Origin: Pseudomonas sp. PA15(2017)
GTDB lineage: Bacteria; Pseudomonadota; Gammaproteobacteria; Pseudomonadales; Pseudomonadaceae
Assembly (NCBI RefSeq): GCF_001945395.1
Contig: NZ_MSXV01000009.1
Coordinates: forward strand, 1-64,000
Length of the DNA: 64,000 nucleotides
Direction of reading: 5' to 3'
The notes under the pieces are model-generated. The model was given only the letters and a program-made list of their open reading frames with translations. It was not told the DNA's origin and did no database searches. A program made the position numbers and the translations under genes. This document shows positions 481 through 20,515 of the stretch, in pieces; positions within the stretch are counted from its first letter, which is position 1, and each line of letters begins with the position of its first letter.

Positions 481-1614
481 GCAAAACCCTGGGCCGGCAG
501 CACGCTGGCCTTCATCCACAGCCTCGGCAACGCCCTCCCCGCCGCATCACTTCCTCTTTGTGGATAACCCGTTCCACTCAGCACAAAACCACCATGAAAC
601 CCGGCATGGGCAAAACATGGCTGTGCGCTATGCCTTGCCTGCCGGTGAGCAATGGTGGACCGCATCCCCAGATTCCGTGGAAAGCGCTGTGCATAAGCTG
701 TCGCCACATGGCTACGGCCCAGCACCCACAAGGGTTCCCGACCATCGTACAAAAAACGTTCTATACCAATTAGTTGTGAATCAGGTTACGCACAATCACT
801 GTGCAGGAGCGCCTTCACAAGCTGTGCATATGTGGCCTCAGGCCCTGTCATCAAAGGCCTACAGCAAGCTGATCATATTTTATCCAGCGCCTTTGGGTGC
901 AAAGTAATCCACAGAGCCAACCGGGTACGATTATCCCTTGTGGACATCCATCCCCAGCAACCGGGGACGATAATGGGGATAAGCTGTCGGAAAAGTTCTG
1001 AAAGCCCTGCTATCAAAGGGATCTAGCCAATCGAACAAAAAATGATCGGCAGGCGCGCCTTGGCAACTTATCTACACACAGAAACTGTGCGCGCTTCTGT
1101 GCATAAGTTGTAGTAAATGGTCTGGAGGCCTTGATGCATGCGGCATTGACAGCTATGATCATTTTTTGATCAAGCATCTGTGCGCATGATTTACCGGGTG
1201 GCAGCGCCATGAGACCTGCAGCATGGTGAATAGACCTCTGCCCATTTTCCCCAGACTTCATGGATCACGCTGTGTACAAGCTGTCGCCACCAGGCTGAAA
1301 GCCTCGTGAATAGCCACCTTCAGCCAACTGAGCAAAAAACATACAGGCGATCGAGCCGACGCTCAGGCAGCGCGCTGTGCAGGACTGCATAATGCTGTGA
1401 ATAGTGCTGTGGATAAACTGTTCAAGTCTACGCTCTTGAGCGAATAGCTCATCATCCGTCCGTTCAAAAACAGCTGCTAGAAAGGGTTAGCGAGAGATAT
1501 TGCCCGCCTTGCACACAATTGCTGTGCGCCGGGCTGTGGACAAACTGTTGGATAGCCGCCACAGCGCCCGTAATCCGGGCGACGCAGCGGTCTGATCAAA
1601 TTTTGATCGGCAAG
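481..1614. repeat. 1.1-kb gene-free region with regularly spaced DnaA-box-like repeats
   Basis: No credible gene is seen. Eight motifs of the form TGTGSATAA followed by CTGT lie in one orientation at 559, 688, 823, 974, 1098, 1271, 1408 and 1535, with spacings of 124-173 bp. Copies at 559-567 and 1408-1416 match the DnaA box exactly (TTATCCACA on the other strand). Others differ by one or more bases (TGTGCATAA, TGGGGATAA, TGTGTACAA, TGTGGACAA). Opposite-strand near matches occur at 905-913 (TAATCCACA) and 1068-1076 (TTATCTACA). Several copies are preceded by a GCACA...TGTGC inverted repeat, for example 1511-1528. Two further copies occur at 17.6-17.8 kb. Confidence 0.7.
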
Positions 1615-17543: not shown

Positions 17544-17895
17544 ACGACCCGAACATGCCACCTGCCTGATCGTTCGGGCACGGGCATTCGACGCACAAAT
17601 ACTGTGTGCAGGCCTGTGGATAAACTGTTGGATAACCGCGCTACGCTTTTTATTCACGGGCCGCCTGGCAGGCTGACCATTTTTCGTTCGACGGCGGCAT
17701 CACGCCTGCCACGAAAGGCCCGAAACAACGCGCTTTCAGCCTTGAATCAATGATTGGCCTGACGGCATTCTGCCCACTGACGTTTTGCGCACAAATACTC
17801 TGTGCATAACTGTGGATAATCTGTGAAAGACGGCGCAGACGCCACGGTTCTCGGGCGTCTGCGGGAATTGAGCAGTTTTTGTGCGATGCGGAAAA
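17544..17895. repeat. gap with two more DnaA-box-like repeat units
   Basis: No gene is seen in these 352 bp. Two units like those at 559-1543 occur. One contains CGCACAAATACTGTGTGC and then TGTGGATAAACTGTTGG, with the exact box at 17615-17623. The other contains GCGCACAAATACTCTGTGC and then TGTGGATAATCTGTG, with the exact box at 17811-17819. The first is nearly the same as the unit at 1535 beside gbcB. The gap lies between the convergent dgc operon and gbdR, so it carries no promoter for either. Confidence 0.65.
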
Positions 17896-19668: not shown

Positions 19669-20515
19669 AGGGCATCTGCGCATTTTTATCTGCTGGCCGA
19701 TCGGCCGTCAGTCGCAGTCGGTATCGGAGTGCGACAGATGCCAGAAAGCGGCGACGAGCAAACGAAATCGGCGGCCAGTTATCCGTCCCGCAAAAGCGGA
19801 AGACCGCGTCGAACGGTCGGAAAACGACCGAAACCGATACGTTTTTTGCTCGCTACCAACAGCTTTACATACGTTTTTTAAATCTGCTGTAGCCCGCATG
19901 CCCCCTGGCCTTCACCCGCCATGAAGGCTGAAAACCGCGTCATGCGCGGCCTCCAGCCTTGGCCAAGTACAGAAGTAATCTGTTATGGTTTTTTTAGGCG
20001 AGGGCTTCGTGTCGTCGCCCAACACGTCAGGGTCGTAATTCGATAATTGCCACGACCGCAAGACTATATCGTTGAGTCAGCCGATTTCGTCGCTGCCACT
20101 CTTGACCAGAGAGGCAGACTGGGGCCCACCGCCCTGGACCGAAGAACAGATAAGTGCTGGCTACCGCAACAGGGCGCCAGCCCAACAAGAAATTTCGGAT
20201 GTACGCGCATCTCGGATGAGGTGTGAATACCCAAAGGACTGGGCTTCGTAACACTGCCAGAGGGTTTGGAAAGCAGTTTGCAGCACGGCCACGCATTACA
20301 TCATTCGTCACGTTCACCTATTGCGCTTGCCTCGGCGACCGCTCTGGGACGCGCTCGAGTGCCTGCAGAACGCCTTGTGACAGAACGCTGTCCAAACCCA
20401 GGAACCGTGTATATACCCACAAGCAAGAACAGTCTGCATCGCATGACGGACGCCCGGTGGGCGCTCGGCAAACTGCGTGTGACTGCTCTGATGTCTACTG
20501 AAGGGGAACCATCCC
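19669..20515. promoter_or_regulatory. cbcV upstream region
   Basis: No gene is supported in these 847 bp. A short hairpin GGTCGGAAAACGACC lies near 19816. TGCCAGAAAGCGGCGAC at 19739-19755 resembles a string upstream of gbcA and may be a GbdR site. A GGCGA...TCGCC hairpin after a T-run lies near 19990-20020. The long leader suggests the cbc promoter is well upstream of the start codon. Confidence 0.4.

Follow-up and report, generated by a model that had tools for sequence, protein, structure and literature searches.

Why do DnaA-box-like motifs recur at positions 481-1614 of the window, the 64,000-nucleotide stretch of Pseudomonas sp. PA15(2017) DNA analyzed here, in a region where the ORFs in an ORF listing are short and mutually overlapping? 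All eight motifs reported in a preliminary description of this DNA were recovered at 559, 688, 823, 974, 1098, 1271, 1408 and 1535, on a single strand and 124-173 bp apart. With at most one mismatch, TTATCCACA occurs 18 times in the 64-kb window, compared with 4.62 expected occurrences (maximum of 10 in 100 shuffles), and 9 of these 18 9-mers fall within 512-1543. Nor is the motif equally dense elsewhere: a loosened 14-mer, TGTGNAYAARCTGT, searched with 1 mismatch, has 16 matches in the 5.5-Mb genome, 8 of them in the window (the reversed-pattern control gave 9). We propose that the region is probably a tandem array of DARS-type (DnaA-reactivating) elements that would also titrate DnaA; the reactivation and titration readings are not mutually exclusive.

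A rigid module with three DnaA boxes

The layout and rigidity of the repeated unit can be read directly from the sequence. It is a module of ~100 bp that consists of three DnaA boxes, a pair of inverted arms and a palindrome, with all offsets counted from C0, the C of CTGTGGATAA:

-25 to -17, reverse: box I, consensus TTATCCACA
5-bp gap between boxes I and II
-11 to -3, forward: box II, in which GTG is strongest
3-bp gap between boxes II and III
+1 to +9, forward: box III, consensus TGTGGATAA
+10 to +14: conserved GCTGT
+25 and +45: inverted arms, CTGCAGGCC at +25 and GGCCTGCAG at +45
+60 to +74: palindrome, GATCAWWWWTTGATC

The consensus comes from an ungapped alignment of 45 units, of which 44 (one unit with an extra base was dropped) make up alignment A1 and the sequence-only model R1, built without E. 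coli and yielding rough E-values. The conserved GCTGT accounts for the extension of the motif beyond the 9-mer that had been noticed earlier. The GCACA/TGTGC inverted repeat seen upstream of some copies is also real but consists of box I plus box II of the unit. The box offsets of -25, -11 and +1 represent a three-box core with boxes I and II opposed at a set spacing, as in DARS. For 42 sites chosen solely on box III, scores for a reverse box were highest 26 bp upstream of it, and those for a forward box 12 bp upstream. In the array units both box I and box II are weak, most units having 2-6 mismatches in each.

The palindrome conforms to GnnYAnnnnnTRnnC, the Fis consensus of PMC8682772. Within 1 mismatch, this consensus is found in 39 of the 45 units, a count that is biased because these units were picked by hand, partly for the palindrome at +60; among units of six arrays picked by the core alone, it is present at +60 (with at most 1 mismatch) in 25 of 31, and at any other offset in no more than 6. 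Apparent palindrome variants at +49 and +72/73 were register errors and, once re-registered, lie at +60 or +61. No IHF site was found at a fixed place in the 45 Pseudomonas units, except for 4 at +77.

The array in the window

Six full units occupy 662-1608 (C0 at 687, 811, 973, 1097, 1270 and 1534), accompanied by a double box and a lone box, and a second cluster of two units lies farther along the window:

559..567, +: lone exact DnaA box TGTGGATAA, C0=558 (R1 only 7.7 bits, E 0.29)
662..761, +: unit 1, type A, C0=687 (R1 59.9 bits); box I 662-670, box II 676-684, box III 688-696, arms 712-720 and 732-740, palindrome 747-761 (1 mismatch to the Fis consensus)
786..885, +: unit 2, type B, C0=811 (R1 38.6 bits); box I 786-794, box II 800-808, degenerate box III 812-820, arms 836-844 and 856-864, palindrome 871-885 (0 mismatches)
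948..1047, +: unit 3, type A, C0=973 (R1 53.9 bits); box I 948-956, box II 962-970, box III 974-982, palindrome 1033-1047 (0 mismatches)
1072..1171, +: unit 4, type B, C0=1097 (R1 64.9 bits); box I 1072-1080, box II 1086-1094, box III 1098-1106, palindrome 1157-1171 (0 mismatches)
1245..1344, +: unit 5, type A, C0=1270 (R1 54.5 bits); box I 1245-1253, box II 1259-1267, box III 1271-1279, palindrome 1330-1344 (1 mismatch)
1396..1416, +: core-only double DnaA box, C0=1407 (R1 18.2 bits, partial); box II 1396-1404, box III 1408-1416
1509..1608, +: unit 6, type B, C0=1534 (R1 66.9 bits); box I 1509-1517, box II 1523-1531, box III 1535-1543, arms 1559-1567 and 1579-1587, palindrome 1594-1608 (0 mismatches)
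17589..17689, +: second cluster, first unit, C0=17614 (R1 43.0 bits); one extra base, palindrome at +61
17785..17884, +: second cluster, second unit, C0=17810 (R1 50.8 bits); box I 17785-17793, box II 17799-17807 (poor), box III 17811-17819, palindrome 17870-17884

Two kinds of unit alternate in the array: type A has a box I ending in CCCCA and an A-rich palindrome, and type B a box I ending in CACA and a T-rich palindrome. The spacings between successive units are 124, 162, 124, 173 and 264. Three of the eight original motifs are reassigned under this register. The motif at 559 is an exact box but not a regular array member, with no box I or II, arms or palindrome in register; the one at 1408 is DnaA-box-like, being box III of the core-only double box, which has no palindrome at +60; and the one at 823 lies 11 bp out of register with the true unit at C0=811, whose box III is degenerate. 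Both units of the second cluster are conserved in the sister genome G001.

No Rfam family was found in the array at gathering thresholds; the sole match in the window is a proV RNA motif (RF03045, 136.7 bits) at 20088-20232. The start of the window has two copies, at 71 and 159, of a 12-bp direct repeat, GATATATCCAGA, next to a short ORF (184-480). Pfam gave no match in 1-480; the arrangement is presumably the end of an insertion sequence adjoining a gene that resembles a truncated threonine aldolase.

Conservation of the array among relatives

A simple tandem repeat, with copies alike over their full length, was rejected: Tandem Repeats Finder gave only two short arrays, with periods 9 and 12, and the identity between units of the same array outside the motif is 0.17-0.47, mostly near 0.3. 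The unit spacing is conserved, with 124/162-163/124 kept in eight arrays. In seven relatives, the spacings are 124, 162-163, 124, 172-185 and 282-350, and in L022, 123, 162, 123, 161, 225 and 225 (L015 and L030 were left out of this comparison). Across 11 orthologous arrays, the mean identity is 0.714 in motif columns versus 0.498 in the others, and none of 109 rotated masks scored as high. For the seven nearer arrays, the values are 0.787 and 0.617, a difference of 0.171 that exceeds the best rotated mask (0.165) by a thin margin.

The earlier suggestion of a decayed ~135-bp tandem repeat thus survives in part: the functional columns are common to the units, and a distance of 123-124 bp separates A from B in the first two A-B pairs. 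Nevertheless, because the motif columns are kept between species and the non-motif columns have diverged within an array, selection fits better than decay. Judging by these alignments, the array is maintained and not merely decaying.

Distribution in Pseudomonas and position relative to dnaA

The array adjoins gbcB, and 80 named gbcB loci were taken with flanks of up to 6 kb on each side. R1 (E<=1e-5) yielded 206 matches in these flanks, distributed over 50 of the 80 loci; no units were found in the gbcB flanks of the other 30, including all five of Stutzerimonas. All 10 loci of the window's group, which includes P. flavescens, P. argentinensis, P. punonensis, P. seleniipraecipitans, P. daroniae and P. 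cuatrocienegasensis, contain 6-7 units, and the remaining 40 contain 1-4, among them those of P. mendocina, P. putida, P. fluorescens, P. syringae and P. aeruginosa PA7. Restriction of the array to a single clade is wrong: it is absent from other species in that one gap only. A whole-genome search with R1 (E<=0.01, weak matches counted) produced 6-21 matches in each of 21 Pseudomonas genomes.

Cluster positions were counted in 13 complete genomes (G057 and drafts were left out) for clusters of >=35 bits. This resulted in 59 strong clusters with 122 units; because the clusters are partly orthologous, a binomial p computed from them does not represent a true probability, and many of the dropped matches below 35 bits are farther from dnaA. 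Most of the strong clusters (49 of 59) are located 0.3-1.0 Mb from dnaA; 51 lie within 0.35 of the half-chromosome from dnaA and 2 within 0.1. They occupy both arms or one in 12 of the 13 genomes, G014 having a single cluster, and in 7 of the 13, a cluster of four units is found 34-46 kb from a cluster of two. Both the distances from dnaA and the units in the gbcB flanks point to a conserved placement away from oriC, which is characteristic of DARS. Stray clusters occur in G003, G012, G018 and G020. G029 departs from the other genomes: its five strong clusters are all to the same side of dnaA, 0.8-2.4 Mb off, perhaps due to a rearrangement or an assembly problem.

As had been pointed out, dnaA is not in the window: it is encoded on contig C10, and the window is on contig C1. 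In G001, where the two share a contig, the array is ~331 kb from dnaA, consistent, together with the concentration of unit clusters around dnaA in the complete genomes, with the DnaA-related, origin-linked role envisaged in the preliminary description. The array is not oriC, because it does not adjoin dnaA, and loci spanning the dnaA upstream region (L102 and L112) had no R1 match at E<=10.

Two further observations concern single units. Weak ones (~26-30 bits) are found 17-23 kb from a second DnaA-family gene, which we take to be probably hda, in several Pseudomonas genomes (for example, G010:C1:4854331 and G019:C1:1927672). Besides their array-type units, G000 and G001 have single units in which boxes I and II are strong (L106 and L097), the layout encountered beyond Pseudomonas.

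Sites matching TTATNCACA crowd around dnaA, with 30 of 103 in G000 on the 130-kb contig C10 and 32 of 96 in G001 at about 240-410 kb of contig C4. The former count would suit a DnaA titration sink, whose boxes hold DnaA and lower free DnaA once the region is copied, as would the accumulation of E. coli DnaA boxes near oriC described in PMC12371093. The core layout would then reflect the general preference of DnaA for double boxes 2-3 bp apart (PMC11317965). We consider this reading unlikely, if worth weighing: a sink needs neither an opposed box I at 5 bp nor a fixed palindrome at +60/+61, yet both are kept, and it should favor strong boxes, whereas boxes I and II are weak in the array units.

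The module beyond Pseudomonas

With R1 (E<=0.001), matches were found in 167 of 274 gammaproteobacterial genomes, representing 145 of 222 genera. A model-independent pattern with free gaps, TTATCCACA-N(0-25)-TGTGGATAA-N(0-25)-TGTGNA, was detected in 136 of 369 Gammaproteobacteria genomes, with 0 matches to the reversed-pattern control among the rows listed. Out of 676 possible gap pairs, a single one, (5,3), accounts for 136 of the 147 matches listed (three nested, longer readings of sites already counted were left out). In the genome from which the window comes, the strict pattern is not matched, owing to the weakness of boxes I and II in the array units.

Selection by the core alone gave 24 class-level loci (the usable part of 30 listed free-gap matches, several from close relatives); in 19 of them, the 15-mer most like a Fis site lies at +61. 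In the same loci, 11 of the 19 IHF-consensus matches (at most 1 mismatch) over all offsets start at +95/+96. The elements lie off dnaA in the compared complete genomes, at about +1.03/-1.00 Mb in G137 and +0.17/-0.13 Mb in G179.

Outside Gammaproteobacteria, R1 has matches in 68 genomes, and all 14 fetched loci (L244-L257, chosen by R1 from the best-scoring ones listed) contain the core or a close copy. Some of these out-of-class genomes also carry a palindrome near +61. Fis has been described as restricted to Gammaproteobacteria; since R1 matches genomes outside the class, the palindrome may serve a protein other than Fis.

Could the whole unit be the site of another protein or of a chromosome-organizing complex, resembling DnaA boxes by chance? 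The +60 palindrome and the arms at +25 and +45 are not DnaA boxes, and the out-of-class palindromes are compatible with this view. However, it would leave unexplained the consensus sequences of boxes I and III, the often exact sequence of all three boxes in elements outside Pseudomonas and the clustering around dnaA, and no Rfam family occurs in the array. We regard such a chance resemblance as quite improbable.

Proposed mechanism and novelty

In the mechanism that we infer for DARS-type units, DnaA would occupy the II-III double box, a second DnaA would meet the first head-to-head across boxes I and II, and Fis, binding at +60, would bend the DNA 60 bp away and so stabilize the DnaA complex. 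The stabilized complex would let ADP leave, whereupon DnaA could rebind ATP. Several units per cluster would supply recharging capacity and, at the same time, a DnaA sink, and fork passage would double the copy number of the cluster, with the predicted dosage effects.

The DARS-like clusters on both sides of the origin hint at an unrecognized replication-timing system. More tentatively, Pseudomonas could possess a distributed DnaA-recharging system, in which tandem DARS-type clusters lie on both arms, forks double its capacity at a fixed interval after initiation and one cluster has been enlarged to 6-7 units in the P. flavescens/argentinensis group; the core-plus-palindrome might then be an ancient, mostly uncharacterized replication-control element of Gammaproteobacteria, and probably of a wider range of bacteria.

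According to a review (PMC10380432), many proteobacterial species have conserved sequences that resemble DARS1 and DARS2, so a wide distribution of the core is by itself no novelty. In the open-licence literature, we came across neither DARS elements nor tandem DARS arrays described for Pseudomonas, and in searchable papers, nothing on how the genus resets DnaA from one replication round to the next; the tandem DARS-type arrays look new. The exact unit definition (I-5-II-3-III, arms, +60 palindrome) makes the proposed reading directly testable, and R1 supplies candidate elements in each of the sampled gammaproteobacterial genomes where it matched.

Comparison with oriC, double boxes, datA and DARS

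The Pseudomonas oriC shares TTATCCACA boxes with the array but adjoins dnaA. On the E. coli oriC stretch, R1 reached at most 7.2 bits. The double DnaA boxes of nrdA, polA and purH are direct pairs 2-3 bp apart, like boxes II and III of the unit, and such E. coli double boxes are bound by DnaA in vivo (PMC11317965); their definition includes no opposed box I, arms or palindrome.

The element datA is a hydrolysis site that uses IHF. A DnaA-titrating, datA-like cluster had been put forward in the preliminary description; a datA-like element would promote hydrolysis of DnaA-bound ATP and thereby prevent re-initiation. Like datA, the array is a DnaA-box cluster away from oriC, and its many boxes in the same orientation and its link to the origin would agree with such a role. 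It is not the best match, however: the box layout is that of the DARS core, R1 gave <=5.8 bits on the E. coli datA stretch upstream of yjeV as against 19.4 bits on DARS1, and the Pseudomonas units lack an IHF site at a fixed place. We therefore consider a datA-like function very improbable.

The E. coli elements DARS1 and DARS2 have a common three-box core with boxes I and II opposed (PMC8682772, PMC4245941), and the gap between boxes II and III is given as 3 bp in DARS1 and 2 bp in DARS2 (PMC11317965). With our division into boxes, DARS1 reads TTATCCACT-ATTCC-TGTGGATAA-CCA-TGTGTATTA and DARS2 reads TTATCCCAG-CTTTC-TGTGGATAA-CAT-GGTGTAAGA.

Several points count against the DARS reading: the weakness of boxes I and II, the failure of R1 to find DARS2, the absence of a Fis consensus at +60 in both DARS1 and DARS2, the lack of a fixed IHF site in the Pseudomonas units, and the clusters of G029 together with the stray ones. 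DARS2, located upstream of mutH, is described as requiring IHF and Fis at set places (PMC4245941), and the Fis-consensus palindrome of the Pseudomonas units sits elsewhere than the Fis site used in DARS2. An IHF consensus at +94 of DARS2 was set aside, as it could not be placed inside the published 455-bp element. R1 scored 7.9 bits on the DARS2 core and 8.7 on another part of the stretch; DARS2 nevertheless shares with the array unit the opposed boxes I and II 5 bp apart, and differs in being a single copy.

The closest likeness is to DARS1, upstream of uvrB, which has the same I-5-II-3-III layout. R1 aligned with it ungapped over 85 positions (E 6.7e-5 in 138 kb), with the arms at about the same place. 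DARS1 is a single copy and combines strong boxes I and II with a weak box III, the reverse of the array units. If the arrays are DARS, Pseudomonas has many copies, at conserved positions, of a type of element whose study has centered on two single sites in E. coli.
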